In this document: piece by piece, positions 23,114 through 38,450 of the stretch | How positions within the stretch are numbered: the first letter of the stretch is position 1 | How the letters are laid out: each line of letters starts with the position of its first letter | Source: a virus | Virus record (IMG/VR): IMGVR_UViG_3300006754_000024 | Span: 1-54,028 of that record | Strand: one strand, 5' to 3' | Length of the DNA stretch: 54,028 bases | Translations under genes and position numbers: made by a program | The notes under the pieces: generated by a model | What the model saw: only the letters and a program-made list of their open reading frames with translations | What the model was told of the DNA's origin: nothing | Databases searched by the model: none

Positions 23114-23923
23114 ATGAGACTCCCTCCCCCACCCTCCGGTACCGCTGTGCGCCGCGTTCGTTTCCGCGAAGGCGCACCTATCGCCGGCCATGAAGTGTTC
23201 GAGCTCCCCCAGTGGAACGGGATGTCGGACAAGAAACGAGTGGCCTACATCCGAAAGCTCGTGAAGCAATACGGGAGAGACCCACGTATTCGCGAGCAAG
23301 CCGTCGCCATTATCAAGGAGGCGAATGCGCCTCCTCGCGACTACCAGGCGCAAGCGGCTGCTCTCCTTCACTGGGTGAATCAGAATATCTATTACGTAAA
23401 CGAACCCGCTGAGCTGTTACAAAGCGCCTGGCGGACCCTTCAGGTTCGATCGGGCGACTGCGACGATTGTCACATCGTTCTGAGCTCGCTCGCGGAGTCC
23501 ATTCGTCTCCCGTGGAAGACGGTTCTTAGCGGAAACAGGAACGGCCAGCGCGTTCGCTGGATCGAGGGCACTCCCGAACCGAAGGGAGTGAAATGGGCGC
23601 ACATATATACCCTGCTCGGTTGGCCTCCCTTTCGGCCTCAACAGTGGATGCTGGCTGATCCGTCACTCCGCAACAGCTATCTCGGGTGGGACATCGTGAA
23701 CGCTCCAGGGATGCCTCCGGTCCCAGGAGCTCCCCCAGAAGCGATGCCTGAAATGAGCGGATACGGGGCTACCGAGTTCGGGCCGGTCCAAGACGGAGAG
23801 GTCGAGGCAATCGTACAGGATGCGAAGCGAAAAGCCCGGTGGGAATCCATCGACTGGAAGAGCGTAGCGACGCTCGGTATCCCCGTTTTCGTTTTCCTGA
23901 TGGTATTGGCCCGCCAGAAATGA
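23114..23923 (+). CDS. Transglutaminase-like cysteine protease, membrane-anchored
   Basis: A 269-residue protein with the papain/transglutaminase triad in order: Cys116 in RSGDCDDCH, His163 in KWAHIYT, Asp182 in LADPS. The family includes proteases and crosslinking enzymes. A C-terminal transmembrane helix (about 251-265, GIPVFVFLMVL) is followed by ARQK, as in its neighbours. It could be the virion maturation protease acting on the tail-anchored proteins or the modular proteins downstream, or a peptidase for host wall peptides. The target is not shown by sequence. Confidence 0.78.
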   Translation: MRLPPPPSGTAVRRVRFREGAPIAGHEVFELPQWNGMSDKKRVAYIRKLVKQYGRDPRIREQAVAIIKEANAPPRDYQAQAAALLHWVNQNIYYVNEPAELLQSAWRTLQVRSGDCDDCHIVLSSLAESIRLPWKTVLSGNRNGQRVRWIEGTPEPKGVKWAHIYTLLGWPPFRPQQWMLADPSLRNSYLGWDIVNAPGMPPVPGAPPEAMPEMSGYGATEFGPVQDGEVEAIVQDAKRKARWESIDWKSVATLGIPVFVFLMVLARQK

Positions 23924-24627
23924 GCTACCACGGATGTCGGGATATCGACTGCGTGAATCAGGACGCGCTCCATAACAAAGGGCCGCGTGTCCTCTCCGAA
24001 TCTGGAGAGCGCATGCAGATCCATGGGCGCAGGGGGTGGTGGTTCCCGGCCCACGCAAACAACTTCAGTACCAGGTCGAGAACTAAGGCTGACATCAATC
24101 GAATCGTCATCCATACCGCCGAAGGCTACACCGGGGGGCTGAAGACGTTTCAAGAGCCGGACCGGGGAGGAAGCGCCCACTACGCCGTGCAGTGGGACGG
24201 CCAGGTGGCGCAGATGGTGGACGATAAGGATATTGCCTGGCACGCGGGAAACTGGTCCTACAACGCCGACAGCATCGGGATTGAACACGTAGGGTTTGCT
24301 CATGCCATGGAGCCCAGGAGATCGGGAAGTCCGATCGCGTGGAGCCAGAAGATGCTCAACTCGAGCGCCTGGTTGACAGCGAAGCTCGCCAAGAAATACA
24401 AGGTCCCGCTCGATCGAGAACATATTATCGGCCATGTCGAGGTGCCGAGCCAAACCCACTCCGACCCAGGAGACAATTGGCCGTGGGCCTGGTATATGGC
24501 TCGGGTGAGATACTATTATTACAGGCCTTGGATCTGGGGCGGTCTCGCTCTCCTCATGTTTGGAGTTTTCGGGAAGCAGGTTCATTCACGCAAGAAACGC
24601 AGAATACAGAGCTGGGAGACGTACTGA
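23920..24627 (+). CDS. Tail-anchored N-acetylmuramoyl-L-alanine amidase (Amidase_2)
   Basis: A 235-residue protein. RIVIHTAEG (His65), IIGHVE (His172) and HSDPG (Asp182) give the zinc ligands of the Amidase_2/PGRP fold, and GIEHVG (Glu122) sits at the usual catalytic strand. It cuts the bond between N-acetylmuramic acid and the stem peptide. A transmembrane helix at about 203-219 is followed by SRKKRR. Like the transglycosylase at 2113, it is a lysin held by a C-terminal anchor, which fits a virion membrane enzyme better than a soluble endolysin. Start by ATGA overlap. Confidence 0.86.
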   Translation: MSYHGCRDIDCVNQDALHNKGPRVLSESGERMQIHGRRGWWFPAHANNFSTRSRTKADINRIVIHTAEGYTGGLKTFQEPDRGGSAHYAVQWDGQVAQMVDDKDIAWHAGNWSYNADSIGIEHVGFAHAMEPRRSGSPIAWSQKMLNSSAWLTAKLAKKYKVPLDREHIIGHVEVPSQTHSDPGDNWPWAWYMARVRYYYYRPWIWGGLALLMFGVFGKQVHSRKKRRIQSWETY

Positions 24628-24986
24628 TGGGAGCTGGCGGAGTAGAACTACCCAATTTCATTACAAGGGAATCGGTCGAATGGGCACATGGCCAGGCCAT
24701 CCGAGCTCAAGAAGGCGGGAGAGCCGGAATCGCTCAGGCTGGAATGAGAGCGGCTCGAGCTCGAGATCCTCTTTTGCTCAAGACCCTCGATGCCGGAGCT
24801 GAGATTCTTCAAGAGATCAACGCTGAGCAGCAGGGGAACAATGTCCTGAGCTCGGGGGAACGGATCGACGCTACGGAGTTCTCTCTGTGGAGAGAGGCGT
24901 TCAAGAGCGCCGACGAGGGACAACCGATGGAACAGTTCTGCTGGATCTACGGGGCGGCTGCGCTTCTTTCTGGACTGGCCCATTGA
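24627..24986 (+). CDS. Helical protein of unknown function, 119 aa
   Basis: The start overlaps the amidase stop (TGATG). The protein is Ala/Arg/Glu-rich and helical, with a mildly hydrophobic C-terminal stretch (CWIYGAAALLSGLAH) that could associate with membrane but has no basic tail. No family recognised. Confidence 0.65.
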   Translation: MGAGGVELPNFITRESVEWAHGQAIRAQEGGRAGIAQAGMRAARARDPLLLKTLDAGAEILQEINAEQQGNNVLSSGERIDATEFSLWREAFKSADEGQPMEQFCWIYGAAALLSGLAH

Positions 24987-24987
24987 A

Positions 24988-25731
24988 ATGTCCAGAGGAC
25001 TTCCGAGAGGAGAACCAGTCTGTTTAACCGAGGAAGGAGACGGATATTATCTCAACGAAGGAGCTCTGGACTACGAGTGGTGCCTCGAGGAAAACGAGAT
25101 CGAGGCTCTCACTCAAAAAAAAGAGCTCTACAACAGCTTGTTGCGGAACTTCGCGGCCGGAGACATAGACAGGCTTCACTTTGGAAATATGCCCGACTGG
25201 GAAAATTTCCTAAATAACTCCTTCGTACTTGCCGAGCTCGAGCGTGGAAAGGCTGCGACCGACGCGGCCACAGTTGGAGCCTACAACGCGATTCGATCGG
25301 ATCTCATCGACAGGTACCAATATAAAGCGAAGATCCTGGGCAGCGACGGACAGGAGTTCGTTTTTGCCCATCCTGTCGCCATGGGTCCAGCCTTCGGGGA
25401 AATCAGACGCCTACTAATCGGGATGGGCGCGTCGAAGACAGCCGACACGGTACGCGACCTGGCCACCAAATACTGGGAACAAGAAAAGAATTATCACCCC
25501 GGAGGGCGGTTTTTCCAAGAGAGCGAGGTCTGGAAGCGTTTCGGTCCTAAGCCGAAAACGTCCGCGCCCAAGTCCTCGAGCGACTACCAGCCGCCGGCCA
25601 ACCCTGGAGCTCCCCAAAACGCACCCATCTACAGGAAGCCGGTTTTCTGGGCGATAGTGGGCGGAGCTCTGCTTCTGCTTGGAGGCCTGGTGGCAACGTC
25701 TCGCAGGAGTCGAGCCAGAACGGGGTACTGA
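24988..25731 (+). CDS. Tail-anchored protein, 247 aa
   Basis: The N-terminal 185 residues are a helical, acidic soluble domain. A Pro/Ser-rich linker (about 190-217) leads to one transmembrane helix (FWAIVGGALLLLGGLVA, about 221-238) and a basic end, SRRSRARTGY. The TGATG overlap couples it to the metallopeptidase. I infer that the soluble domain is displayed on one face of a membrane. Confidence 0.7.
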   Translation: MSRGLPRGEPVCLTEEGDGYYLNEGALDYEWCLEENEIEALTQKKELYNSLLRNFAAGDIDRLHFGNMPDWENFLNNSFVLAELERGKAATDAATVGAYNAIRSDLIDRYQYKAKILGSDGQEFVFAHPVAMGPAFGEIRRLLIGMGASKTADTVRDLATKYWEQEKNYHPGGRFFQESEVWKRFGPKPKTSAPKSSSDYQPPANPGAPQNAPIYRKPVFWAIVGGALLLLGGLVATSRRSRARTGY

Positions 25732-26135
25732 TGGCGAAGCTATTCGAGCTGGCTCACCAGGTCTACCTCGAGGCGGCCGACGCCTTTCCTGAGATCCCGG
25801 ATATTCGTCTGGTGGTGACAACGGACGCAGGGATGAAGGGCCGGAGCTATGCGTATTTCGAGACTCCCGACTGCGTCCTTGGGGTCAGTCCTCGGCTCCT
25901 TACCGCCGAACCAACACGGCAGCTCGGAGTCCTCCGGCATGAACTGGGACATGCGATCCATTTCGCTTATGGACGAGAAGCCTTGTCGGAGCTGCCTATA
26001 GTTTTGCCCAAGTCCGACGAGCGCCTCGCAGACGTATTGGCAGAACTCGTCTGGGGCACTCCCATCTATTACGATGAGGAGCTCGTGCAGAACGTCGATG
26101 GGGGGGTGGCTCCCCGTCCCTCGGAGCTCGGATAG
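25731..26135 (+). CDS. Small zincin metallopeptidase-like protein
   Basis: A 134-residue protein with VLRHELGHAIHF, a complete HExxH zinc-binding helix (70-74), followed by an acidic helix DERLADVLAEL that may give the third ligand. The length suits compact zincin domains of the SprT/ImmA kind. A virion or lysis role is inferred from position. It has no membrane anchor. An AT-richer gap with a promoter candidate follows. Confidence 0.75.
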   Translation: MAKLFELAHQVYLEAADAFPEIPDIRLVVTTDAGMKGRSYAYFETPDCVLGVSPRLLTAEPTRQLGVLRHELGHAIHFAYGREALSELPIVLPKSDERLADVLAELVWGTPIYYDEELVQNVDGGVAPRPSELG

Positions 26136-26141
26136 CGAACC

Positions 26142-26170
26142 TTGCGTCCAAGCTCGAAATAGAGTAACTT
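26142..26170 (+). promoter_or_regulatory. Putative sigma70-type promoter within the structural operon
   Basis: TTGCGT (26142-26147) and TAACTT (26165-26170) are separated by 17 bases in the 80-base gap before the gene at 26216. This is one of few real gaps in the operon, so an internal promoter is plausible. Confidence 0.4.
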
Positions 26171-26215: not shown

Positions 26216-27451
26216 ATGCCTCGTCGACGAGGACAGCAATACCGTAGGCGCCGTTCGGCATCGAATCCGGTGGCTCGTGCGCGAGCTCTCGTTCGGATTG
26301 CGAAGCGCACCGGACGCCCAGAAGATTCTCAGAAAGCGGTAGCCTTTATAAAGGCGCATCCTCGTCTGATGAGTGTTCCGGACCTGCGGGCCTTCACCAC
26401 CCAGCACACAGGCCAGGCACCAGGACCAGGTTTCAAAGGAATCCGCAGGCGGACACCCAAAGCAGCCTATCGACGCGGTCGATATCGCTGGCTGAACCAG
26501 CCAGGCGGCGGATGGTCTCCACAGACTCCATCCGTCATTCCCCACCAGTTCGAGCCGGCTACCGGATACCCCCAGACTTGGACGGCAGAAGGCGGCGTCG
26601 TTCCAGATCCGCTCGTGTACGAGGACGAGCCGACCAGGGGTCCCATGCTGTGGTCCGAAGACATGGCAACAGCTACACCGCTCGCAGGCTATGGCGCGAA
26701 TGTGGCCGGCAACAGTCCATACGGTGGACGAAAGAGGTGGCTCCGGGACTTCCGGTATAACGACCGGATTCCCTCGGAGTTCGAGGTTCGACAAATGGTG
26801 CGTGATGCCTTGGACCTGTCCTCAGAGATTAACGATCCCTATTCCTGGGGAAGCAAACAAGCCTGGCCGATCGAATGGTTGAGCCTTACTCCACAAGAGC
26901 AAGACGGACTCTTTAGATTCGACAATTACTGGAACCAGACACCGGCTGGTCTGTTGTCTGCCAATGGAGTCATAACCCTTCCTTCACACAGTACATTTAT
27001 GTCGATGATCGGGGGGCCGCATCGGTTAGATGGCTACGGAAAGCTATTCGGAGGAGGGCGACTTCGCGATCGTTTTGGCTACAAACCTCTAGCCCGTAGG
27101 CGATGGCAAAAACAGGTTTTGAAATCCAGAAGGCTAAAGGCTCAACTAGACCGAATGCCTGACAATCATCCGGCCAGAAAGCGGGTTTACCGTCGCTGGT
27201 TGAGAGTGGTAGAAAAACTAAAAACCAATCCCAACACGGTGAACATCACCGAAATAGATGGCACGGAAACAGATGGATTCGGAGCGTTCAACATCTCCTT
27301 CGGAGAGAGTCCTTTCCAGAAGGCTTCTGCTCTCGCCATTCTTGGCGGAACAGCGATGTACTTCCTGTCGAAGAAGAACAAAAGCAAGAAGCAGGGCATG
27401 AACGTCGCGACTCTCGGCGGGGCTGCTTACGCTCTCACCCTGCTCACCTGA
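26216..27451 (+). CDS. Basic protein with two C-terminal membrane helices, 411 aa
   Basis: It starts MPRRRGQQYRRRRSASNPVARA, a strongly basic N-terminus with the basic-Asn-Pro motif. The centre is Tyr/Trp/Pro-rich. Near the end, two hydrophobic helices (ASALAILGGTAMYFL and MNVATLGGAAYALTLL) flank KKNKSKKQ. LAGYG and GYG also occur. It is probably a virion protein that touches both DNA and membrane. No family recognised. Codon use is less GAGCTC-biased than in neighbours. Confidence 0.7.
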   Translation: MPRRRGQQYRRRRSASNPVARARALVRIAKRTGRPEDSQKAVAFIKAHPRLMSVPDLRAFTTQHTGQAPGPGFKGIRRRTPKAAYRRGRYRWLNQPGGGWSPQTPSVIPHQFEPATGYPQTWTAEGGVVPDPLVYEDEPTRGPMLWSEDMATATPLAGYGANVAGNSPYGGRKRWLRDFRYNDRIPSEFEVRQMVRDALDLSSEINDPYSWGSKQAWPIEWLSLTPQEQDGLFRFDNYWNQTPAGLLSANGVITLPSHSTFMSMIGGPHRLDGYGKLFGGGRLRDRFGYKPLARRRWQKQVLKSRRLKAQLDRMPDNHPARKRVYRRWLRVVEKLKTNPNTVNITEIDGTETDGFGAFNISFGESPFQKASALAILGGTAMYFLSKKNKSKKQGMNVATLGGAAYALTLLT

Positions 27452-27469: not shown

Positions 27470-28663
27470 ATGGCTTATCGAATGGTTAATTACGGACGGA
27501 CGCCGTCTTACGGTCACTATGCGGGTGCTCCGATGGACCCGCGCGTAAATCTCGCCGGCCGCGTCTATTGGCATCTGGCCTACGATGTCAGTTCCAAGGG
27601 CTACGCACAGTCCTGGCGCAATCTTGACGAAACCTGGAAAACTATCCTGGTTTCCTTTCCCCTCGATGCCCCAGGCTACTATCTTCACCAGGCCATTACG
27701 AACAACCTGCTAACTGACGTGCCCGGTGAGGTCCTCTCTGCGACTACTCCCAACTGGAGCGGCTACGGCGTGGCTCTGGCCACCGCAGCGGCAACGACGG
27801 GCCTGAAACGTGCCTTCGATTCGGCAAAGCTCCCGGTTCTCGCGAGCTCTCGCAATATCCAACGACTGAACGACCAGCTCCGAAAGCTGGTGGCTCGGCG
27901 AAAGAGGGTATCGAACAAGCTCCGACAGAAGAGCCTCGACAAGCGCATCAAGAGCCTGAAGGCACGCATCAAGAAGGCGACAAAGAAGACGAGAGACCTG
28001 GCCAAAAAGAGAAGGTCGAAAGGGAAGGAGCTCAGCAGGTACCGACAGAGGTCGCTGGATACAGCCAAGAAGATCAAACGGGCCAAGGCCAAGCGAGCCA
28101 AGAGAAAGAAGGCACAGAAGCCAGGAATCGATCATCTCAAAGATCAATATCCGTGGGCTTTCCGAAGCACGCCTCCTAAGTGGTTTATGCGCGGGAAACC
28201 CAAGACGCGGCGCACGTCGGCATGGAAGAAGCTGAGCCCTCAGCAGCGGATCGGCAGATTCAGGCAGATGCAGCGGAGAAAGCCTCAAGGTGGCGGACAA
28301 CTACCATATAAGCGTCCTCCCCAGCAGTCGCCCTACGAGCCGAACGGGATGGCCGCAGAACAGGAGTTCGACATGGACTCCGGGATCTACGAGTCCGGTA
28401 CCCCCACGGCCGATATGATGGCTCCATACGCGCAGGAGGAGGCGATGGTCGAGGCCGAGCTCGACTCTGGAGTCGATGTAGACGGCGATCTGCTCGAGAT
28501 GGAGGCGAGCTCGAGACGTAACCTGACACCTTTGTGGATTGGTCTCGGTGCCGTTGGACTCATTGGAATCCTGGCGCTCACTTTCGGAAAGAAGAAAAGG
28601 AAGAAGGGAAAGGGAAAGGGAAAGGGAAAGCCTAAAGCCCCACCAGTGGCGGCGTATCCATGA
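27470..28663 (+). CDS. Lys/Arg-rich coiled-coil protein with C-terminal anchor, 397 aa
   Basis: Start after CAGGAGAAATC. The N-terminus contains NYGRTPSYGHYAGAP. About 140-225 is an extremely Lys/Arg-rich helix likely to bind DNA. An acidic stretch (about 300-345) precedes a transmembrane helix (LWIGLGAVGLIGILALTFG) and a tail of repeated Lys-Gly. The combination suggests a protein linking packaged DNA to a membrane. It overlaps the next gene by ATGA. Confidence 0.7.
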   Translation: MAYRMVNYGRTPSYGHYAGAPMDPRVNLAGRVYWHLAYDVSSKGYAQSWRNLDETWKTILVSFPLDAPGYYLHQAITNNLLTDVPGEVLSATTPNWSGYGVALATAAATTGLKRAFDSAKLPVLASSRNIQRLNDQLRKLVARRKRVSNKLRQKSLDKRIKSLKARIKKATKKTRDLAKKRRSKGKELSRYRQRSLDTAKKIKRAKAKRAKRKKAQKPGIDHLKDQYPWAFRSTPPKWFMRGKPKTRRTSAWKKLSPQQRIGRFRQMQRRKPQGGGQLPYKRPPQQSPYEPNGMAAEQEFDMDSGIYESGTPTADMMAPYAQEEAMVEAELDSGVDVDGDLLEMEASSRRNLTPLWIGLGAVGLIGILALTFGKKKRKKGKGKGKGKPKAPPVAAYP

Positions 28664-28935
28664 ACCTCGACGCCCGAACCCTGATGACTCTCGGTAGCAA
28701 GCTCCTCCACATTTTGAAGGACGCGAGCCAGCATGTCTCCCAGCTGAACCAGGCAGGGGAGGAGGTCTCGAGAGAGGCGCTCCAGTTCTATATCATGCTG
28801 AGATTCGAGAACTGGAACCCCAAAATCAAAGGGGTGTCGGTTCTGGATGATCAATCTCGAGTCGACGGTGCGGCTTTCCTTGCCGGGATTGCCTTTACAC
28901 TTGCCGCAGGCATGAAGGGACGGAGTGCTGCGTGA
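28660..28935 (+). CDS. Small protein with hydrophobic C-terminus, 91 aa
   Basis: Helical N-terminal half, then a moderately hydrophobic C-terminal helix (AAFLAGIAFTLAAGM) ending in KGRSAA. It follows the operon's anchor plan in a reduced form. Both ends overlap neighbours (ATGA and GTGA). No family recognised. Confidence 0.65.
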   Translation: MNLDARTLMTLGSKLLHILKDASQHVSQLNQAGEEVSREALQFYIMLRFENWNPKIKGVSVLDDQSRVDGAAFLAGIAFTLAAGMKGRSAA

Positions 28936-29510
28936 AGTTCACTCCCCACGGCCGTTCGACCTACGGGACGAACCCCGCCTGGGGTGAGGTTTCCTATGCG
29001 GGCGTATACGGAAACGAGGCCGAGCTCGAGGCCGCACCTGTAGTCGCTCCGGAGGAGCAGCTTTCGGTCCCTCAGCTCATTGAGGCCGTGGTGTTTTCTT
29101 TCCAGACCGTAGGACAGGACGAAGGCTTGCGCGTAGCGGCCGAAAACTCGAGAGGGCAAAGCCCCGCCTTGGTTTTGGCCGCGACGGAGTATATCCGCAC
29201 GCGGAGCCTGAGCCCAGAAGACCTCGAGGCGAGAATCGCGGAGCTCCGAACAGAAGAGAGCCGAGCTCTTCAATCCGGGAACGCTAACGCTGCGCAGATC
29301 GCGTCTTATAAGATTCAGATGCTCCGCCGTCGCCACACGGGAATCGTCGACGAGGGCGAGCTCCAAGGGGTCCGGGACCTGACGGAGATATCGGGCCAGG
29401 CGAACAAATGGAAAGAGAGGCTCCCGCTTATCGGAATCGGAGTAGGCCTGGTTGGACTGATGATCACGCTCGGGGTGGTGAAGGTCCGCAAACGGGGGAA
29501 GAAGGGATGA
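28932..29510 (+). CDS. Tail-anchored virion-type protein, 192 aa
   Basis: GTG 28932 overlaps the upstream stop. The N-terminus TNPAWGEVSYAGVYGNEAE contains NPAWGE, which also occurs in the 862-residue protein at 42607. A helical domain (about 40-155) is followed by a transmembrane helix (PLIGIGVGLVGLMITLGVV) and KVRKRGKKG. No enzymatic motif. Confidence 0.7.
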   Translation: MKFTPHGRSTYGTNPAWGEVSYAGVYGNEAELEAAPVVAPEEQLSVPQLIEAVVFSFQTVGQDEGLRVAAENSRGQSPALVLAATEYIRTRSLSPEDLEARIAELRTEESRALQSGNANAAQIASYKIQMLRRRHTGIVDEGELQGVRDLTEISGQANKWKERLPLIGIGVGLVGLMITLGVVKVRKRGKKG

Positions 29511-30169
29511 ACTACCTCACCGATGACATGAACACTTGGGACCAGGCCTATGAAGGATGGGGATGCTGTGGGTGCCCCACCACCGGAGCTCCTGCGGCGG
29601 ACTATAAAGGGCTGGCCGGGTATGGCCTGGTAGCGAATCCCTCCGTCGGCCGTCATTATTCGAGCCGCAGCGCCTACGGTGGAGTCTTCGACAACCTACG
29701 AACCTGGTGGCAGAACCGGAGCGCCAGCGACCGGGCCGGTTTGCTCGAACGGATTCGAGAGTGGAGAGCGGCGCGGCAAGCGGGACAAACAACGGAATCT
29801 ATCGACGATTGGATCGTCAGGATGAACCAACCGGGCGCGACCACCGAAGACGCGACGGCTATGGTGCCCAGAACGACCTTTTGGCAACGCCTCCGCTCGG
29901 CTTGGCAAGACCGGGCGCCCGTAGATACTGGTACTAGAGAAGAATGGCTCTCGGCGGGAACGACCGTGGCGGCGTCTCTGATGCCGAGCTCGGGAAGATC
30001 CGGGGTAGGAATGTCGGAACTCGAACAGGACGCTTTTCTGGCGCAATCAATGGCTCTCGCCGAGGCTCAGGAACGCGAGAGGAAAAAGAAGATTGTAATC
30101 GGCGCAGCGGTAGCGGTTGGAGTGATCGGGGTACTCATGTTTGCCACCGGACGGAAGAAAGGGGGATGA
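29507..30169 (+). CDS. Tail-anchored protein with Cys-rich N-terminus, 220 aa
   Basis: The N-terminus has EGWGCCGCPTTGAP and LAGYG, and the middle is Arg/Trp-rich and helical. A charged helix RERKKK leads into a transmembrane helix (IVIGAAVAVGVIGVLMFA) and GRKKGG. The Cys cluster resembles that of the 53-residue protein at 33681 and could bind metal or form disulphides. Start by ATGA overlap. Confidence 0.7.
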   Translation: MNYLTDDMNTWDQAYEGWGCCGCPTTGAPAADYKGLAGYGLVANPSVGRHYSSRSAYGGVFDNLRTWWQNRSASDRAGLLERIREWRAARQAGQTTESIDDWIVRMNQPGATTEDATAMVPRTTFWQRLRSAWQDRAPVDTGTREEWLSAGTTVAASLMPSSGRSGVGMSELEQDAFLAQSMALAEAQERERKKKIVIGAAVAVGVIGVLMFATGRKKGG

Positions 30170-30172: not shown

Positions 30173-30484
30173 ATGGTACTCGCAATTCTCGGAGTCGTGT
30201 CCGCAGTGATCTCTGCGACCGTTGCGGGCGTGAAGGGGGTCCAGGCTCGGAACGAGGCGACACGGACCGAGTTTCGGCGCAGGGAAGACTTCCACCGAGC
30301 TCAAGTCGTAGCGATGACGCAGGGATCACGCGAGCAGCTGGCCGCGATTCGTCGGTCCTCCTTGGATGCTCAGGCAGAGCAGGCCCGTCTATTGAACGAG
30401 AGCAAGGAATCGCAGAAGAAAGCCCTCATGTATGGGGCAGGAGCCGTCGTACTCGGAATGTTTATCCTCTCGGCTCGGAAATAG
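30173..30484 (+). CDS. Two-helix membrane protein, 103 aa
   Basis: A hydrophobic N-terminal helix (LAILGVVSAVISATVAG), a charged coiled-coil-like middle and a C-terminal transmembrane helix (MYGAGAVVLGMFIL) ending SARK. The next gene repeats this plan (hydrophobic N-terminus, charged middle, C-terminal helix), so the two may be a diverged pair. Confidence 0.7.
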   Translation: MVLAILGVVSAVISATVAGVKGVQARNEATRTEFRRREDFHRAQVVAMTQGSREQLAAIRRSSLDAQAEQARLLNESKESQKKALMYGAGAVVLGMFILSARK

Positions 30485-30820: not shown

Positions 30821-31183
30821 ATGGCTACCAAGAAAGAAAAAAACACCCTGATTCTCCTCGCACTCGTGGGAACAGGTCTGTGCCTGGCCTACCGGAGAAA
30901 GAAGATGTCTTCGACTGTGGGCGGATACGGAGCCACGGCTAACCATGCCGCTCAATGGTATCCGGCCATGCAGAGAATGGGTGGGCCAGGTCCCGTAACT
31001 TGGACTCCCCTCGGACCATTTATAGAGCACGTAGGATGGGAGTGCGCCCATGCTCATCCTGGACTTTCTCACCAGCAGTGGACTCAGCTCTATATGCGGA
31101 AGTATTACGGCGTCGATCCGAGTGTCGGCCCGTCGGTGGTTCCAGCCCTAATCGGAAGCGATCCTGGAGCTGTGAAGATATGA
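30821..31183 (+). CDS. N-anchored membrane protein, 120 aa
   Basis: Unlike most neighbours the anchor is N-terminal: MATKKEKN, a helix (LILLALVGTGLCLAY), then RRKK. The soluble part carries VGGYGAT and is rich in Trp, His and Pro. The topology may be inverted relative to the tail-anchored set, placing this domain on the other membrane face. Stop overlaps the next start (ATGA). Confidence 0.68.
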   Translation: MATKKEKNTLILLALVGTGLCLAYRRKKMSSTVGGYGATANHAAQWYPAMQRMGGPGPVTWTPLGPFIEHVGWECAHAHPGLSHQQWTQLYMRKYYGVDPSVGPSVVPALIGSDPGAVKI

Positions 31184-31548
31184 GCTCCACCTACCCCTCG
31201 AGCGGACAGGTAACTGCCGCCCAGAAGAACCACATGGCTCTCGTCTTGATCGGCCAGATCCAGGAGCGAGTTCGGAGCACTGGTACAGGAGTCCATTGGA
31301 CCCGGATCTATGATGCTACGGGAGCCGATGCTTCTCAGAATCCGATCTACCAGGCCGTACTGAGCCAGGTACCGGCGGGACAGGTGGATACCGCTCCTGG
31401 AGCCTGGCTATTCGCACTCGGAAACGATGGGACCATCCTGGGGATTCCCGGAACCCGGTTCGCGGACACGTCCATGAATTATCACGGACACTGGTCCGAT
31501 TTCTCCTACTGGGGAGACTACGGAGAGGCGACATTATGGATGCGATGA
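31180..31548 (+). CDS. Soluble protein with C-terminal WGDYGE motif, 122 aa
   Basis: The start overlaps the upstream stop; the longer open frame is inside that gene. It is a small alpha/beta domain with no membrane segment. The last 20 residues contain SYWGDYGEATLW, the Trp-Gly-Asp/Asn-Tyr-Gly-Glu motif found near the N-terminus of proteins at 34913 and 35835. It overlaps the next gene by 13 bases. Confidence 0.66.
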   Translation: MSSTYPSSGQVTAAQKNHMALVLIGQIQERVRSTGTGVHWTRIYDATGADASQNPIYQAVLSQVPAGQVDTAPGAWLFALGNDGTILGIPGTRFADTSMNYHGHWSDFSYWGDYGEATLWMR

Positions 31549-32447
31549 AACTGGTAAACGCGATTAGCGACCGAGCACAAGCCACGAATCGGCCCGTAAT
31601 GTGGGCCTCACTCACCGGAGACCAGAAAAGGCTCTTGAATACCGTCAAGCCAGAACGGGACGAGCTCTTCCGGGTAGGCGAGCTCGCGCTTTTCCGTGGG
31701 TCTTCTGCGGCTGGAGGCGGAGGAGCGGCAGCTGGTCCGGGCGGAATTGCTGGTTACGGCGGAGACGAGATCGGCCCTCAAAGCGGAACCATCCCGTCCT
31801 CGTCACTCCCAGTCACTACCGGGAGCTCCACTACCCTCGGGGGCGTCTGCACCTACACCAGCTATGGCCAGGCTAAGATCGCCTACCGGCAATACCGTGC
31901 GCTTGCGGCTCAGGCGAAGGCCGACGGCAAGATGGCCCTCTACCGCCACTATACTCTTCAATGGAAGTGCGCTCGAAACGAGATGGAGCGCCTCGGAGCT
32001 CCAACATATGAAGGCTATGGGTACTGGGGTGCCTACGGCGATGTCTGCACCCGCACCCAGAAATGGTATAACAAGCGGCTTGCCGCGCTCGAGAAATGGA
32101 GAGAGAACCCTCCCCGCCTCTTCGCCAACCGCCGTATCGCTCGGAAGGAAAGGCTCGTTCAAACCTCGCTGAACAAAGCTATTGCAAAGAACTGCGCATG
32201 GGCCACTGAAGGGGATAGGCAGGTGGAGCTCGCGGTCGCGGCCCAGGAACAGCAGGCCATCGACGCAGTAATGGCCCAGGAGTACCAGCAGGCTCAGCAG
32301 CAGCTCTCCACTTCCTCTAATGTGCTTGCGCGACAAGCGTCTGCTCCACCGATTGAGAAGCCTTGGGTTCTCGTGGCTGCCCTTGGTGGCGCCGGGCTGC
32401 TCTTCGCGATGGTGGCCGTCTGGCGGAAGCGGAGCCAGGCTGGATGA
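31536..32447 (+). CDS. Tail-anchored protein, 303 aa
   Basis: A Gly/Ala-rich linker with GIAGYGG (about 50-75), a CTYTSYGQ region, EGYGYWGAYGDVC, then a helical Gln/Ala-rich stretch and a transmembrane helix (WVLVAALGGAGLLFAMVAV) followed by WRKRSQAG. It combines the GYG and WGxYG motifs with the standard anchor. No enzymatic motif. Coupled to the next gene by ATGA. Confidence 0.7.
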   Translation: MDAMKLVNAISDRAQATNRPVMWASLTGDQKRLLNTVKPERDELFRVGELALFRGSSAAGGGGAAAGPGGIAGYGGDEIGPQSGTIPSSSLPVTTGSSTTLGGVCTYTSYGQAKIAYRQYRALAAQAKADGKMALYRHYTLQWKCARNEMERLGAPTYEGYGYWGAYGDVCTRTQKWYNKRLAALEKWRENPPRLFANRRIARKERLVQTSLNKAIAKNCAWATEGDRQVELAVAAQEQQAIDAVMAQEYQQAQQQLSTSSNVLARQASAPPIEKPWVLVAALGGAGLLFAMVAVWRKRSQAG

Positions 32448-32890
32448 ACTCGTACCTTCCCATAAACTACGCCGGAGGCGGTTGGGCGGGCGACCCTGAG
32501 CAGCAAGAAGCTGCACAGGCGCTCATCGGACACGGCACGGGGATACTCAGCGAGCTCCTGTCTGATGCAGGCAGGGAAGGGCTTGCAGAGGACATCGAGA
32601 CATATGGGCCGGTGGTGGCCTCTACCGTCTCTGTTCTCCAGTCTCCGGAGCGCCAGGTGGGGATTCTGAGGAACCGGCTCGCTACCGCCGAACGCCTGAA
32701 TCTTCCAGAGGCATTTGTTGGGCGCATCCGAGCTCAACTCGCGGCAGCGGAATCGGCGCTCGCTCGCGAAAGGGAATCGGACGAGGCGGCATCTAAATTC
32801 CGCGAACTTGGTACAATTGCCTCATACGTCGGGATTGGCGTCGGGGTTTCTTTAATCATCCTATTTATGAGTCGAGCGTTTCGACGGTGA
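32444..32890 (+). CDS. Tail-anchored helical protein, 148 aa
   Basis: The N-terminus is short and Gly-rich (INYAGGGWAGD), the middle is helical and charged, and the C-terminal transmembrane helix (YVGIGVGVSLIILFMS) ends RAFRR. It follows the same plan as its neighbours. Confidence 0.7.
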   Translation: MNSYLPINYAGGGWAGDPEQQEAAQALIGHGTGILSELLSDAGREGLAEDIETYGPVVASTVSVLQSPERQVGILRNRLATAERLNLPEAFVGRIRAQLAAAESALARERESDEAASKFRELGTIASYVGIGVGVSLIILFMSRAFRR

Positions 32891-32900: not shown

Positions 32901-33665
32901 ATGGACATAAGCACACTTTGGGCGAACAAGATGATCGGGCTCGGCGCGATCGGACTGGCAGGCGGTTACATCACAGGCAAGACCAAGAAGAAGAAGCAGA
33001 TGAATGCTCTCCTTGGAGCTGGTATCGGTGCGGGAGTTGGGGCCTTCCTCAACATGCGCCAAGAGGCAGCAGCATCCGAAGCGCTCTCTGGATATGGAGC
33101 TCCAGCGCAGATCACAGCCGGCCACATGGGACCGGGAATGATGTCCGGCGGCACCAGTGGCGGGAGCTCGATCCCTTACGTTGCCGCAGACGCAGGCCCA
33201 ACCGGAGCTCGGCGTCCACGAAAGGGAAGCTATGCGTACCGTCGAATCATGAAGCACCGGGAAGACCTGGCTGGGTATGGAGCCATCCGTCCGGCGCGTG
33301 GAACTCGTGCCTACCGACGGGTAACGAGCCCCATGCCTCCCTATTCTCCCGTTCCGATGCCGGTGGGGTCCTATCGTCCAGTCCACACGCCTCGAGCTCC
33401 GTACCGGAGGGTTCGCTCTCCGATGCCTCGCTATCAGGCCGTTCCGGGAATGCACCGGTCCTCCTATCATCGCCCGCACGCTTCGTATCGGACCAAGCAG
33501 TATTGTGCCCAGATCAAGCAAGCGATGGACGCGATGATGGCGGCTATGGCGAACAATCAGCCTATTCACGCATATCCTGGCGGTCCCGTGCTTTCTCCTG
33601 AACAGGCAAGAGCGAAGCTCCATCGGGTAAAGCAGGTTCACGCTCACTGGTGTTCGATGCTCTGA
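32901..33665 (+). CDS. Gly-zipper membrane protein with Tyr/Arg/Pro repeats, 254 aa
   Basis: Two N-terminal Gly-rich hydrophobic helices (IGLGAIGLAGGYITG and LLGAGIGAGVGAF) are separated by KTKKKKQ, forming a glycine-zipper hairpin. The rest is a basic, low-complexity region with repeated AYRRV and SPMPxY units and two GYG motifs, ending in a helix with Cys. It may oligomerise in membrane, as pore-forming or packing proteins do. Ribosome site AGAGGC. Confidence 0.7.
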   Translation: MDISTLWANKMIGLGAIGLAGGYITGKTKKKKQMNALLGAGIGAGVGAFLNMRQEAAASEALSGYGAPAQITAGHMGPGMMSGGTSGGSSIPYVAADAGPTGARRPRKGSYAYRRIMKHREDLAGYGAIRPARGTRAYRRVTSPMPPYSPVPMPVGSYRPVHTPRAPYRRVRSPMPRYQAVPGMHRSSYHRPHASYRTKQYCAQIKQAMDAMMAAMANNQPIHAYPGGPVLSPEQARAKLHRVKQVHAHWCSML

Positions 33666-33680: not shown

Positions 33681-33842
33681 ATGATGTCCTACTACGCCGG
33701 CTGCGGCTGTGGCCCGAGCTGCGGCTGCGCTCCTTGTCGAACCGCCTACGGAAACTACGGCCGGTTTGATCCGAAAACGAATCTCATCCGAATCGGATTG
33801 GGAATCGGGCTGCTTGTACTCGTTTTGAAGTGGGGAAAGTAG
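33681..33842 (+). CDS. 53-residue Cys-rich single-pass protein
   Basis: A short gene after AGGAGGGAAAT. The product starts MMSYYAGCGCGPSCGCAPC, with five Cys residues in 13, then AYGNYGRFDP, then a transmembrane helix (IRIGLGIGLLVLVLKW) and GK. It shows the operon's plan in its smallest form: a Cys/Tyr-Gly head plus anchor. The close fit between flanking genes supports it. Metal binding or disulphides are possible. Confidence 0.75.
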   Translation: MMSYYAGCGCGPSCGCAPCRTAYGNYGRFDPKTNLIRIGLGIGLLVLVLKWGK

Positions 33843-33843
33843 A

Positions 33844-34920
33844 ATGGCCCTTCCAGGAACCTTCGCCACCCCGATGACCATCTACGGCATCCTTGGCGCT
33901 GCCATAGGTTTTCCTATTGGCGGCATCAAGGGCTCCGTGAAGGGTGGCATCGGTGGGGTGGGGCTCGGAGCCCTGATAGGTCTCGCCAAGCGAGCCAACC
34001 CGAACGATCCGGATGCAGCCGTTCCTGAGATATGGCAACGGGACACCAGGCGTAGCTCCCTACTCCCGACATCGGAAATACTTCCCCCCGGAATCATGGA
34101 AGGAATGGGAGGAAGAGGAGGGAAGGCGTCGGACTACCAGATCGATCTCTCTCAGTTCGAGGGACTATCCACATTTGGAAAGGCCTGGGGCGCAATCCCT
34201 ATCGGAGACGTTGGAGGGGTTTTCAACCCGAGCTCGAGAACCATTCTCGGCGACGTGACTGTCATGGGATGGGACCCGGATCTCGGTCCTTCCAGTATCG
34301 AAACCAATATGATGAATTTCGTGGGAGTCACTCCGGTTAATCAGGATGACCTGGTGGTTCTCTTCGACTGGATGGCCTACCTCGCCTACAACATGAAAAA
34401 CTCGAGCAGCGATGCGGGAGAACACGGAATTACAACCGTGCGGGCTGATTCAACGGTCGCGGGCTACCGAGCTCGGCTCGAGAGATGTGGAAATACCAGG
34501 TTGACTCAGGACGAATCCATAGGCCAGCCGTCCCAGATGGTGTGTGGGCTTCGCGTCATTCGAGCGATGGTGAAGGCCGTGGAGGGGAGCCCGGCTGCGG
34601 TGGATGTCGTAGCGGCACGGCTCGCACGGAACTATTACGAGAACGTCGAGAAGCCTTTGCTGGGCAAAGAGACGGCCACCAGGTACGTTCCAGCTGCACT
34701 CGTGGGAGCGGTGCGACCTCCGGCCCCCTCCAGTTCGAGCTCGAGCTCGAGCTCGAGCTCGAGTGGCTCGAGCACCTATTCGCGACCGTCGGACACTCAG
34801 GTCGCGTTCTTCGAGAGGCGCGGGGTGAAGATCGGAGCAGGAGTGCTCGGTGGAGCTCTTCTCATCACCATCATCGCTCTCGCGGCGTCCGGACGCAAAA
34901 AGAGAGCGCCTGGTGTATGA
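33844..34920 (+). CDS. Membrane protein with Ser tract and C-terminal anchor, 358 aa
   Basis: N-terminal Gly-rich hydrophobic helices (about 10-50) lead into KRANPNDPD. A soluble domain (80-290) follows, then a tract of about a dozen Ser encoded by tandem GAGCTC. The C-terminal transmembrane helix (IGAGVLGGALLITIIALAA) ends SGRKKRAPGV. The Ser tract is a likely flexible linker of variable length. No family recognised. Confidence 0.7.
   Translation: MALPGTFATPMTIYGILGAAIGFPIGGIKGSVKGGIGGVGLGALIGLAKRANPNDPDAAVPEIWQRDTRRSSLLPTSEILPPGIMEGMGGRGGKASDYQIDLSQFEGLSTFGKAWGAIPIGDVGGVFNPSSRTILGDVTVMGWDPDLGPSSIETNMMNFVGVTPVNQDDLVVLFDWMAYLAYNMKNSSSDAGEHGITTVRADSTVAGYRARLERCGNTRLTQDESIGQPSQMVCGLRVIRAMVKAVEGSPAAVDVVAARLARNYYENVEKPLLGKETATRYVPAALVGAVRPPAPSSSSSSSSSSSSGSSTYSRPSDTQVAFFERRGVKIGAGVLGGALLITIIALAASGRKKRAPGV
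34732..34760 (+). repeat. Tandem GAGCTC microsatellite (poly-Ser linker)
   Basis: GAGCTC repeated at 6-base period, about four to five copies, read as AGC TCG (Ser-Ser). It is the longest run of this hexamer in the window and could vary in copy number by slippage without changing frame. Confidence 0.85.
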
Positions 34921-35848
34921 CACTCGCCCATACGATTCGTGGAACGAGCTGAGCTCCTGGGGAAACTACGGGGAATGGAACCTTACGGCAGACGAGCTCA
35001 ACCGGGCCACGTCAGAGATATCTACCGTTCTCGACAACCTGGCCCAGTTTATCGACCGAAAGGCCGGCCTAATCACTCAATGTGCGATTCCGCTGGCGAT
35101 TCCCGACCCTGATTATCCCACCCCGGAGGCCGCCGACCATCGAGTGATCCAGCGCACCATTCGCAAGCTCCGAAGCGCAGCCACCCAGCTCCGATCTCGA
35201 GGATTTCGCGCTGGAGTGCATCCGAACCAGCTGCGGAAATTCATTTCGATGTGGATCAATGGCGATGCAGCTCTCGACGGAGGAGACCTCCTTTTTCAGA
35301 CTATCGCTGCCTGTTTGTGCGCTCCCTCCCGCACTGGGAGCGGGGGAATGTATGCGGCAGGACTCCCGGATATGGAAGGGACTCTAGGAAAAGACGCCAG
35401 CGGTTCCTGGTCCTGTAGGCCGAGCGTCATTCGGCGGACCTGGGGATTCGACGATCAGGCCGATGCGTGGGAGCGGAGCTGGATCGTCACACTTCCGACC
35501 GAGAGCAAGCCGGAAGGAGAGGGGGGATGGAGATGGCGGATTACGACGGACGGGATTTGGACCGTTGATAACGAGATCGACGATTTTCTCGGATCTGCGG
35601 TTTCCGCCCTCGTGTCTCGTGTCACGAGTACCCCCGCTCCCAGTACGGCCGCGCCAGGTGGCTCCGCTCCGCCAGGAGCGCCTCCCCCGCCAAGTGCGGA
35701 CACGATTTTAGGCATCAAAAAAAGCCTGTTCTTTGCAATCGTCGGGAGCGTTGGAGGCCTGGTCCTACTCGCCTCCATGATCGGAGTAGCGAAGCGCAGG
35801 CAACGACGAATTCAAGCTCAAAGGAGAGCAAGCTATGAGACGCTCTGA
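34913..35848 (+). CDS. Tail-anchored protein with N-terminal WGNYGE motif, 311 aa
   Basis: I chose GTG 34913, which overlaps the upstream gene and puts SSWGNYGEWNLT close to the N-terminus, as in the next gene. The ATG at 34917 is in another frame that stops after 11 codons. The soluble domain (about 20-230) is helical then strand-rich with several Trp. A Pro/Ala/Ser linker precedes a transmembrane helix (LFFAIVGSVGGLVLLASMIG) and AKRRQRR. Confidence 0.7.
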   Translation: MYDTRPYDSWNELSSWGNYGEWNLTADELNRATSEISTVLDNLAQFIDRKAGLITQCAIPLAIPDPDYPTPEAADHRVIQRTIRKLRSAATQLRSRGFRAGVHPNQLRKFISMWINGDAALDGGDLLFQTIAACLCAPSRTGSGGMYAAGLPDMEGTLGKDASGSWSCRPSVIRRTWGFDDQADAWERSWIVTLPTESKPEGEGGWRWRITTDGIWTVDNEIDDFLGSAVSALVSRVTSTPAPSTAAPGGSAPPGAPPPPSADTILGIKKSLFFAIVGSVGGLVLLASMIGVAKRRQRRIQAQRRASYETL

Positions 35849-36611
35849 AGACTGGCACCAACAGTGGGGCTCCGCGTGGGGAGACTACGGGGCCAACTGC
35901 TCGAATTGGCAGATCGACCCGAGCTCCCACCACTTCCAAAACCCTCGCACGCTCTCTGAGAAGATTGAGCGAATGCGGTTCGCTGTCGGTGGCAATCGAA
36001 AGACCGGCTATGAGGAGCCTATCCCTACCACCAAGGCCGAGGCCATCGCCGTCTTGGAGCACGCTCGTCGCCAGGCGTCCCTGGATGGGCCTCAAGGTGC
36101 GATGAACTTCTTCAACGATTCGCAGTCCCAGCTCTTTTCCCAGATGGACGAGAACAACATCCTGGACATTCTGGAGCGGTCCCTAACCATCTATGCTCGA
36201 GGCTTCGAGGAGTGTGGAGTGGAGCCGTCGGTATTCGCGGCCGGGTACCTGCAAGGAAAGGTCGAAGCGCTTGGGGGCCAAGGCATTCCGCAGCTGCGGA
36301 TCAACGTGTGGGGAAGAGAAGAAGAGGCCCAGCCCGCCAAGGCTGCGCCTCCGGCCACACCGGGGGCACCAGGCGCGGCCGGAGAGGGTAGGTCTGCGGC
36401 GGAGGTGATCCGACAAGAGGAGCTCGCTCGCCTGAAAGCTCAAAGAGAGGCCGAGAGAGCTCGGTGGTGGGCCGCGAACAAAACCAAGGTGTTTATCGGG
36501 ATCGGTGTGTTCGTCCTTCTCCTCGGAGTCGGTGGGGCAGCTGCGAAGAAACGATCGAAGAGAGCTCGACGCCAATCTCCAGCGGACGAGCTGATGGGGT
36601 ATCTCACATGA
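35835..36611 (+). CDS. Tail-anchored protein with N-terminal WGDYG motif, 258 aa
   Basis: The N-terminus reads QWGSAWGDYGANC, matching the motif in the preceding and following genes. A helical domain (35-155) is followed by an Ala/Pro linker, a long charged helix, a transmembrane helix (VFIGIGVFVLLLGVGGAAA) and KKRSKRARR. It overlaps the upstream gene by 14 bases and the next by ATGA. Confidence 0.7.
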   Translation: MRRSEDWHQQWGSAWGDYGANCSNWQIDPSSHHFQNPRTLSEKIERMRFAVGGNRKTGYEEPIPTTKAEAIAVLEHARRQASLDGPQGAMNFFNDSQSQLFSQMDENNILDILERSLTIYARGFEECGVEPSVFAAGYLQGKVEALGGQGIPQLRINVWGREEEAQPAKAAPPATPGAPGAAGEGRSAAEVIRQEELARLKAQREAERARWWAANKTKVFIGIGVFVLLLGVGGAAAKKRSKRARRQSPADELMGYLT

Positions 36612-37489
36612 AAGCACCGACACCGAACTCCTGGGAAGGACAATGGTCTTCCCAATACGATGCGGCGAACCCGAACGAATACGGGCTCATTCCGATCCTT
36701 ATCGGGCTGGCAATTATCGGCGGAGGCGGCGGCTACATGGCCTACGAATCCGCACAGACCGCCCTCGAACATACTCAGACCAGCGATATGTGGGCGGCTC
36801 TGCGAGTCGAATATGACAAGCGAAACAGCCCCTTGACAAGCTGGAGAGATGAGCGAGTCCAGACGATGTGGCTCAATGCTCCCGCGAACGATGTCGAGGC
36901 CGATATCATGGCAGCGTTCTGGATGTACCGAGCAGCTCGACAGGCGAAAGAGCAGGTAGGGTTCACCGCCTATCACGAAACCCTTATCGCACAGGGAGAT
37001 ATGTACTGGAGGGCCGGAGAGCAGCGCCAGGCCGTAGCAGGATGGCAGGACCACACGGGCCAGATCATGAACATCCTAAAGGGTGCAGCCGCGAAGGTGG
37101 GGGATATCGACATCGGGATGCGGGTGGCCGTCCAAGACTTGGCCAACCCAAGGGCCATCGAGCAACGCCGACACCTAACTGCTACCTTGGGGAATCCGGA
37201 CTGGATGCGGTGGCAGTGGGCGAAGGAGACGGGAAGCGACATCGCTCAGCTGGCGACGGACCCTATGGCAGCAACCGGAATCGACGATCTGGTGAACGCT
37301 CCTAAAAACCTGTGGGACGAATACAAGTGGTGGATAATCGGGATCGGGGGCGGGTATCTACTCCTGAACATCCTACTGGCTGCACGCGGAGGGAAGAAAA
37401 GCCGAGCCCCAGCTCGAGCTCGAGCTCGACCTCCGGCCCGATCGAGACCTTCGGGACGGAGCCTGAGCGAAATACGAGGCGGATCCTGA
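36608..37489 (+). CDS. Two-pass membrane protein, 293 aa
   Basis: An N-terminal NSWEGQWSSQYDAANPNEYG is followed directly by a transmembrane helix (IPILIGLAIIGGGGGYMAY). A helical soluble domain (50-240) comes next, then a second helix (WWIIGIGGGYLLLNILLAA) and a very basic Arg/Ala/Pro tail partly encoded by tandem GAGCTC (ARARARP). Both termini would lie on the same membrane side. Confidence 0.7.
   Translation: MKAPTPNSWEGQWSSQYDAANPNEYGLIPILIGLAIIGGGGGYMAYESAQTALEHTQTSDMWAALRVEYDKRNSPLTSWRDERVQTMWLNAPANDVEADIMAAFWMYRAARQAKEQVGFTAYHETLIAQGDMYWRAGEQRQAVAGWQDHTGQIMNILKGAAAKVGDIDIGMRVAVQDLANPRAIEQRRHLTATLGNPDWMRWQWAKETGSDIAQLATDPMAATGIDDLVNAPKNLWDEYKWWIIGIGGGYLLLNILLAARGGKKSRAPARARARPPARSRPSGRSLSEIRGGS
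37412..37431 (+). repeat. Tandem GAGCTC run (Ala-Arg codons)
   Basis: Here the same hexamer repeat is phased as GCT CGA and encodes alternating Ala-Arg in a basic tail. The change of phase relative to the poly-Ser runs shows that the DNA word, not the peptide, is what recurs. Confidence 0.8.
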
Positions 37490-38064
37490 TGGACGCTCGA
37501 GAGGAATACGTCAAATGGCACAGCTGGGGAGACGTTGGAGAGGGATCCATCCAACCCACTAAGGTACTGGACATCGACGGTCCGGGATTCCCGTCTGAGC
37601 TCGTAGCGATGGGAGAGCTCCACGAGCTCCACGTCGAGCCGACAGACGGAGACCAGATTGAGATCATCGACTACACCGACGAGCCTGGCTGGGCGGCATA
37701 CGATCCGAAACACCCTTTGCAGAGGATCCACCTATGGCTCCCCGAGGAACAAAGGAAGTGGATGGTACAGCACTACGTGGACACTTCGCCGAACGCGGAA
37801 TGGTGGTCTCTACAGGCGGTTGCAAAGGCAGTCGGAGGTCGCCAGGCCTCCTATCCGATCTACGCACAGGAAGAGGTTCAGCCCATTGGACCGCTAACCC
37901 ATATCACGTACTATACGGAGAAGGTGGGAGACGGGCTCAGCCAGTACATTCATGAGTTCGGTGAGGAATCCGATCTCCGACCCTGGCTCGTCGTGGACCG
38001 TCGAGGTAATATATTCGTCGTGGGGGGTAACTATCACAGCCCATACGAGGGGATTACTGATTGA
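37489..38064 (+). CDS. Soluble protein with N-terminal SWGDVGEG motif, 191 aa
   Basis: KWHSWGDVGEGS near the N-terminus matches the WGxYGE motif of its neighbours. The rest is a soluble alpha/beta domain rich in Trp, Tyr and acidic residues, with a strand-rich end (WLVVDRRGNIFVVGGNY). It has no membrane segment. It may be a peripheral partner of the tail-anchored set. Confidence 0.66.
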   Translation: MDAREEYVKWHSWGDVGEGSIQPTKVLDIDGPGFPSELVAMGELHELHVEPTDGDQIEIIDYTDEPGWAAYDPKHPLQRIHLWLPEEQRKWMVQHYVDTSPNAEWWSLQAVAKAVGGRQASYPIYAQEEVQPIGPLTHITYYTEKVGDGLSQYIHEFGEESDLRPWLVVDRRGNIFVVGGNYHSPYEGITD

Positions 38065-38450
38065 TGGAAGAGAGCTTCTTCGGATACCTGCTGGACTACG
38101 GGAGCCTGGGGCTGCTCGCTGCTTATCTGGCCTGGTGGAACCACAAGGCACAGGCAAGGATGGATCAGGCGGCACGGGCGTTCCAGGAGCAGATCCAGGC
38201 CATGGTGGTTCGAGCCGACACCAAAGAAACCTCGCTAAGAGAGCGCTACGACGAAGTTATATCCAAATATGACGAGTCAAGGACGGCCATGATCTCCGAC
38301 GTAGCGACCAGGCTGGCCCTCCAGGAGCAGAAGCTCGACGAGTGCCTCGGCACCCTGTCGACGGGACTAGCTGAGATGCGAACCCACATCACCGAGCTCG
38401 AGGTAAGATGGAAGGTCCAAGACGCGAGAGCCGAAGCAGCAGTCAGGTAG
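38064..38450 (+). CDS. N-anchored coiled-coil protein, 128 aa
   Basis: An N-terminal transmembrane helix (YGSLGLLAAYLAWW, about 12-26) is followed by a long helical, charged coiled coil to the end. A TTG one codon upstream is an alternative start. The layout recalls some small holin or spanin-like proteins, but that is not strong enough to call. It is the last gene of the operon, and its end overlaps the convergent regulator gene by 8 bases. Confidence 0.66.
   Translation: MEESFFGYLLDYGSLGLLAAYLAWWNHKAQARMDQAARAFQEQIQAMVVRADTKETSLRERYDEVISKYDESRTAMISDVATRLALQEQKLDECLGTLSTGLAEMRTHITELEVRWKVQDARAEAAVR

Follow-up and report, generated by a model that had tools for sequence, protein, structure and literature searches.

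What kind of virus needs a long run of genes whose products end, one after another, in a hydrophobic helix followed by a short basic tail? The question is raised by the IMG/VR virus record IMGVR_UViG_3300006754_000024, in which such a run lies between 23.1 and 38.45 kb. All 54,028 bases of the record were analysed (referred to here as the window), and IMG/VR lists it as linear, so it may be incomplete. We consider it probable that the run specifies the membrane proteins of a phage that is tailless and icosahedral, has an internal lipid membrane and is a distant relative of phage SSIP-1, because C-terminal anchors with basic tails are dense, the heads that they carry are unrelated, terminase and tail genes have left no trace, and a gene for an anchored transglutaminase-like protein is common to the window and SSIP-1. 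Genes were called by a codon-usage score trained on long open reading frames; start positions are approximate, and two calls (g47b and g55b) were added by hand. The gene sets used for comparison were either annotated or codon-scored. A megablast search of the central 20 kb against phage records gave no close relative.

Density of C-terminal anchors

Helices were called from Kyte-Doolittle hydropathy in a 19-residue window with a strict (at least 1.6) and a lenient (at least 1.3) threshold, and a protein was taken as positive when its C-terminal helix was followed by a net-basic tail of at most 45 residues. Among the 24 genes called in the run, all on the + strand, 13 are positive at the strict and 15 at the lenient threshold, while g38 and g42, which have weaker helices, qualify by eye only. 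The initial annotation had counted about 20 such genes and had seen the plan in nearly every gene; the plan is real, but these counts are somewhat too high. Both C-termini quoted there are correct, with g40 ending in FWAIVGGALLLLGGLVAT followed by SRRSRARTGY and g56 in VFIGIGVFVLLLGVGGAAA followed by KKRSKRARR. Elsewhere in the window none of 43 genes is positive at the strict threshold and two (g03 and g06, both at the left end) are at the lenient one. It had also been stated that such a density is unusual for tailed phages, and this is borne out by lambda, T7, Mu and Bxb1, which when pooled give 3 of 260 positives by the strict call (about 1%; Fisher p ~1e-13) and 10 of 260 by the lenient call (p 1e-12). 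By the same test PRD1, PM2, P23-77 and SH1 have 2 or 3 such proteins each, and therefore the known membrane viruses do not reach the density of the run either.

The genes of the run are as follows.

g37, 23147..23923, +: transglutaminase-like (papain-fold) head (PF01841, 2.3e-7), MSGYGA motif, C-terminal helix, RQK tail
g38, 24013..24627, +: N-acetylmuramoyl-L-alanine amidase head (PF01510, 1.2e-31), weak C-terminal helix (below both thresholds, by eye), SRKKRR in the tail
g39, 24627..24986, +: 119 amino acids, hydrophobic C-terminus without a basic tail (gene call)
g40, 24988..25731, +: tail-anchored, tail as quoted above (hydropathy test)
g41, 25731..26135, +: HELGH metallopeptidase-like protein without a helix (HExxH read in the sequence; SprT-like 0.048 and M78 0.059, both below the cut-off)
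g42, 26216..27451, +: 411 amino acids, three GYG/GFG motifs, weak helix (by eye) then SKKNKSKK near the C-terminus
g43, 27470..28663, +: tail-anchored, long basic tail KKKRKKGKGKGKGKPK, SGYG motif (hydropathy test)
g44, 28660..28935, +: 91 amino acids, C-terminal helix, short basic end (lenient threshold)
g45, 28932..29510, +: tail-anchored, tail KVRKRGKKG (hydropathy test)
g46, 29507..30169, +: tail-anchored, tail GRKKGG, LAGYG motif (hydropathy test)
g47, 30173..30484, +: helices at the N- and C-terminus, tail RK (hydropathy test)
g47b, 30488..30811, +: C-terminal helix, tail R (hydropathy test)
g49, 30821..31183, +: N-terminal helix with KR flanks, then GGYGA
g50, 31180..31548, +: 122 amino acids, no helix, C-terminal YWGDYGE motif
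g51, 31536..32447, +: tail-anchored, tail WRKRSQAG, motifs IAGYGG and GYGYWGAYG (hydropathy test)
g52, 32444..32890, +: tail-anchored, tail SRAFRR (hydropathy test)
g53, 32901..33665, +: Gly-rich N-terminal helix, then KTKKKK; two GYGA motifs
g54, 33681..33842, +: 53 amino acids, Cys-rich head, YGNYG, C-terminal helix, tail K (lenient threshold)
g55, 33844..34920, +: C-terminal anchor, tail SGRKKRAPGV, Gly-rich stretch also at the N-terminus (hydropathy test)
g55b, 34913..35848, +: tail-anchored, basic tail of 21 amino acids, WGNYGE motif (hydropathy test)
g56, 35835..36611, +: tail-anchored, tail beginning as quoted above, WGDYGA motif (hydropathy test)
g57, 36608..37489, +: C-terminal anchor, protamine-like tail of 34 amino acids (RGGKKSRAPARARARPPARSR...), second helix at residues 27-45 (hydropathy test)
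g58, 37489..38064, +: 191 amino acids, no helix, SWGDVGE motif
g59, 38064..38450, +: N-terminal helix, then a coiled-coil-like region

Apart from g41, g50 and g58 (no helix) and g39 (no basic tail), the genes that depart from the plan are g49, g53 and g59, in which the helix is N-terminal instead of C-terminal. Four of the proteins counted as positive, g47, g47b, g55 and g57, carry a further hydrophobic stretch close to the N-terminus, and an N-terminal signal is absent from most of the anchored proteins. Judged by hydropathy, most of the 13 strict cases follow the plan of bacterial tail-anchored proteins, namely a single C-terminal helix, no N-terminal signal and a short tail. The heads had been described as unrelated, and an all-against-all blastp agrees, no pair falling below E 0.02. 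The helices have a positional pattern in common (137.5 against 120 +/- 3.6 when shuffled), which is suggestive only, as the shuffles got fewer restarts than the real set. No enrichment of GxxxG was found in the anchors.

Relationship to SSIP-1 and to two uncultivated viruses

In a tblastn search with g37, the only match in 50,697 phage records was gp34 of SSIP-1 (E 3e-4, 31% over 140 residues). It has a transglutaminase-like domain as in g37 and a C-terminal anchor, and it is annotated as a structural protein. SSIP-1, the only similar phage in culture and a tailless one whose membrane lies inside the shell, is described as a membrane-containing icosahedral phage with two types of capsid protein, and its genome bears hardly any resemblance to GenBank entries (PMC6356626). 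In its gp33-gp57 region a C-terminal helix is present in 12 of 25 proteins by the lenient call, 7 of them with a basic tail; the C-terminal-helix proteins include gp34, gp41 and gp53, which are annotated as structural. SSIP-1 and the window are also alike in having a coiled-coil gene just upstream of the transglutaminase-like one, many small C-terminally anchored proteins and, close to the capsid genes, a giant protein that includes a ParB-like part. They differ in that the SSIP-1 tails are less basic, its PAPS reductase is a separate gene, its anchored genes form two blocks and no anchored amidase is seen. The SSIP-1-like traits found in the window are an anchored transglutaminase-like protein of structural type and an anchored block near candidate capsid genes, which are assigned as such by position only.

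Two uncultivated relatives were found by scanning viral contigs with a degenerate DNA pattern for RSGDCDD, the active-site stretch. This gave 16 loci, two of which (L019 and L021) encode a transglutaminase-like protein with a C-terminal anchor and an SGLG(T/S)YG stretch. The contigs, examined over their full length, are IMGVR_UViG_3300020580_000040 (G001, 35 kb) and IMGVR_UViG_3300020581_000137 (G002, 34 kb). Against g37 the transglutaminase-like protein of G001 scores 1.7e-13 and that of G002 1.2e-11; against gp34 the values are 1e-17 and 3e-19, respectively. The best phage match of the G001 protein is SSIP-1 (3e-12), the next best being at ~1e-4. In both contigs a coiled-coil-type gene adjoins the transglutaminase gene, three more C-terminal-helix genes follow, and then come a gene with NP motifs, one that is Arg-rich and has GGYG at its end, and capsid-like genes. 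A 144-residue protein there weakly matches the SSIP-1 structural protein gp47 (5.6e-4). Gene order is partly common to the window, SSIP-1, G001 and G002. Several anchored proteins, and an Arg-rich NP-motif protein with a GGYG end before the capsid-like genes, are shared by the two contigs and the window, in which the plan is the same but anchored genes are far more numerous. In G001 and G002 there are about five anchored genes per module and the coiled-coil-type gene is on the opposite strand; their capsid-like genes have no sequence match in the window, and beyond the transglutaminase-like gene the likeness is one of layout and not of sequence. Searches of viral contigs with g62, g63, g67, g32 and g37 singly gave no relative, scans with g37 plus gp34 and with gp45 plus gp46 returned only SSIP-1 itself from viral contigs and nothing from genome contigs, and g37 had no match among plasmids.

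SSIP-1 was formerly a singleton; with the window, G001 and G002 it makes a small group, for which the gene of the anchored transglutaminase-like protein can serve as a marker. Membranes in this group appear to be assembled from numerous unrelated heads carried by a single type of anchor, and with such a plan questions of internal-membrane assembly become testable, namely how proteins are sorted into the vesicle and which side faces the DNA.

The anchored proteins might instead act in the host membrane during infection, in exclusion, lysis or replication membranes, without being virion components. The M15 peptidase g16 could serve as the lysis enzyme and would leave the anchored proteins free for such roles. 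We regard this as rather unlikely, since the g37 homolog and other C-terminally anchored proteins of SSIP-1 are annotated as structural and the run is flanked by a candidate scaffold gene of coiled-coil type on one side and capsid-like genes on the other.

Genes flanking the run

The genes on both sides that enter into the comparison are listed below.

g03, 616..1143, +: multi-helix protein with a basic C-terminus, a plan like that of the run but outside the range first reported (lenient threshold)
g06, 2113..2799, +: lytic-transglycosylase-like head (phrog_4928, 1.1e-24), AGLGG, C-terminal helix, basic tail (lenient threshold)
g34, 20426..22144, +: coiled-coil protein of 572 amino acids upstream of the run, candidate scaffold, counterpart of SSIP-1 gp33 by gene order and domain layout
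g61, 38850..40154, +: Arg-rich N-terminus with RRN and NP motifs, hydrophobic middle, six GYG/GFG motifs
g62-g65, 40212..42607, +: four small genes (215, 207, 211 and 135 amino acids), candidate capsid proteins by position
g66, 42607..45195, +: 862 amino acids, repeated RRN and NP motifs
g67, 45202..52722, +: giant protein of 2506 amino acids with weak ParB-like, Mom-like and PAPS-reductase-like parts

Here g06 resembles SSIP-1 gp54 (SLT 0.0054, below the cut-off), and g61 is the counterpart of SSIP-1 gp44 and of the Arg-rich gene of G001 and G002 by position and composition. Neither g61 nor g34 has a significant sequence match to its counterparts in SSIP-1 and the relatives. The order of g62-g65 resembles that of SSIP-1 gp45-gp48, and they are candidate capsid genes by position only; a visual likeness to the capsid genes of SSIP-1 or of G001 and G002 was rejected as evidence. 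The giant g67 is the counterpart of the SSIP-1 structural giant gp43 (2319 amino acids) by size and by its ParB-like part (ParB_N 2.8e-6 in gp43). Its Pfam matches are ddrB-ParB at 8.7e-4 and Mom at 0.003, both below the cut-off, and its PHROGs matches are PAPS at 5.6e-13 and Mom-like at 7.5e-9; the SSIP-1 PAPS-reductase gene was among its tblastn matches.

Family scans (Pfam and PHROGs) of the called proteins gave replication, modification, integrase and lysis families and no terminase, portal, major capsid or tail assembly gene. The sole tail-family match in the window is that of the g06 lysozyme domain to baseplate hubs. Directed searches for HK97 capsid and portal proteins were empty, and their positive controls did score. 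The feature set of Caudoviricetes (terminase, portal and HK97-fold capsid) was thus not found in the window, a contig that may be incomplete. Could the virus nevertheless be a tailed phage rich in membrane proteins, whose terminase and tail genes have diverged or lie off the contig? The record is linear and possibly a fragment, and residues 718-860 of g66 weakly match a putative prohead scaffold of Flavobacterium phage MaF61 (E 3e-3). However, 54 kb without a terminase, portal or HK97 match, and the rarity of such anchored genes in the tailed controls, make this very improbable. The protein-rich internal virion membrane proposed in the initial annotation is supported, by inference and not by proof, through the homology of g37 to gp34, the gene order and these missing tailed-phage genes.

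Orientation of the anchored proteins

In tail-anchored proteins of E. coli the head stays in the cytosol and the short tail is translocated (PMC6794478), and PRD1 is believed to acquire its membrane patch by pinching off cytoplasmic membrane while capsid proteins assemble along the patch (PMC4267777). Together these suggest that the heads of the run would point toward the capsid and the tails toward the lumen. A helix at the very end of a protein would leave the ribosome only once translation is over and so would insert post-translationally; the heads would be made and kept in the cytosol, as most have no N-terminal signal. When the patch is pinched off and coated from its cytosolic side, the heads would end up sandwiched between membrane and capsid. 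There they may space and dock the capsid proteins, and the two cell-wall enzyme heads would probably be among them. The short Lys/Arg tails would face the lumen that receives the DNA and could neutralise or tether it, a role with which the basic tails of g43 and g57 would be compatible. The amidase and transglycosylase heads could serve at entry to breach the peptidoglycan while the membrane turns into a delivery tube, as has been proposed for PRD1.

Such an arrangement has parallels in other viruses with an internal membrane. VP10 and VP13 of HCIV-1 and HHIV-2 are C-terminally anchored virion proteins, and VP13 of HCIV-1 has been placed beneath the penton (PMC6414509), a precedent for heads toward the capsid. 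The alphasphaerolipoviruses SH1, HCIV-1 and HHIV-2 have anchored virion proteins beneath the capsid, as proposed for the window, though their hosts are archaeal and their membrane proteins few. PRD1 is like the window in having peptidoglycan enzymes in the virion, and its transglycosylase P7, which is among the candidate tube proteins (PMC3782422), passes our test for a C-terminal helix and basic tail. It differs in the low number of such proteins. Its capsid protein, a double jelly-roll, and its ATPase P9 had no counterpart identified in the window, although no direct comparison of the sequences was made; Pfam and PHROGs gave no double jelly-roll capsid protein among the window proteins.

The same virion membrane could also carry these proteins in the reversed topology, with the heads moved across the membrane and the basic tails left on its cytosolic side, where the capsid would lie. 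In 17 tails with 210 residues we counted 84 K/R and 8 D/E, against 48 and 33 in the 15 residues preceding the helices, which fits the positive-inside rule. Likewise, a Streptomyces protein whose C-terminal helix is followed by four basic residues has been predicted to be N-out (PMC3087755). Most of the proteins have no N-terminal signal or helix, however, and heads of up to ~350 residues would need to be moved after translation ends, so we find the reversed topology unlikely, though less so than either of the alternatives above.

Heads toward the capsid of a tailless membrane phage remains the arrangement that we favour, and the following points weigh against it. The positive-inside rule favours the reverse orientation for the basic tails, as in the Streptomyces case, and this is a weak point. 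Convincing sequence matches between the window and SSIP-1 are confined to g37 and the PAPS-reductase-like part, the match between the integrases being marginal. No packaging ATPase of the FtsK/HerA type was found by Pfam or PHROGs on this possibly incomplete contig. When g62-g65 were compared by hhalign and hmmsearch with gp45/gp46 of SSIP-1 and with the capsid-like genes of G001 and G002, nothing was significant. AlphaFold gave no usable fold for g63 alone (predicted local distance difference test score, pLDDT, 45) or for g62 with two SSIP-1 rows (pLDDT 33). Foldseek matches for the g63 model were noise.

A glycine-aromatic-glycine motif

A G[YF]G or G[ND][YV]G motif is present in 15 of 31 proteins of the run, the left end and the capsid region and in 1 of the 37 others; 4.2 are expected from shuffles and none of 1000 shuffles was as high. 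It may be noted that the motif was noticed first and then tested on the same proteins. With a pattern adapted after looking, [AQSR]G[MLFY]G, SSIP-1 has 7 against 1.3 in its membrane-region proteins and none in the rest. In G001 and G002 the enrichment of a broader pattern, G[LMFY]G, is only modest, 38 and 5 of 500 shuffles having reached the observed level. The forms are [MLI]xGYG and WG[DN]YG in the window, GMG and GFG in SSIP-1, and GLG in G001 and G002, where it parallels the motif of the window. In the transglutaminase and transglycosylase proteins it stands between enzyme domain and anchor, and in several others 14-40 residues from the N-terminus. The motif is a candidate common tag of the membrane proteins of the group. 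The [MLI]xGYG form is similar to the adenovirus protease consensus, and this resemblance suggests a possible cleavage site. That the motif would be cut during maturation of the virion membrane proteins, with the anchored transglutaminase-fold protein as the protease, is a speculative reading that we hold to be improbable; if true, a tailless phage would carry out an adenovirus-like maturation step with another protease.

Other features of the window

NP dipeptides and [RK][RK]N are enriched in g61, g66 and g67 taken together (15 against 5.1 expected, and 15 against 2.6, tested after noticing), and the NP enrichment also holds for other window proteins. The ten NP dipeptides of g67 avoid its ParB-like and Mom-like parts and, where the PAPS-like part is concerned, lie at its edges. 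It is possible that these motifs mark linkers or processing sites. The genome may perhaps be circular, with the contig cut within the structural region, because g03 and g06 at the left end share the plan of the run and structural genes reach the right end.

Away from the run, g24 is a Sak4-like AAA_24 ATPase, the structural ATPase gp40 of SSIP-1 being AAA_25. On the minus strand, g16 (7284-7805) encodes an M15-type peptidase (1.5e-23) that is likely the endolysin, separate from the anchored wall enzymes. The product of g32 (16708-19722, 1004 amino acids) has weak helicase similarity and zero matches among the 50,697 phage records. Directly preceding the run, g36 (22549-23073) has a long Glu run and then a Lys/Arg-rich end. 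Adjoining the giant gene, g68 (52719-53084) probably encodes a small SnoaL/DUF4440-like protein, the Pfam hits having been assigned to it by sequence. PAPS-reductase-like genes are also found at 1889-2656 of L005 (P23-77) and at 14166-15014 of L002, and such genes are common to P23-77, SSIP-1 and, fused into g67, the window.

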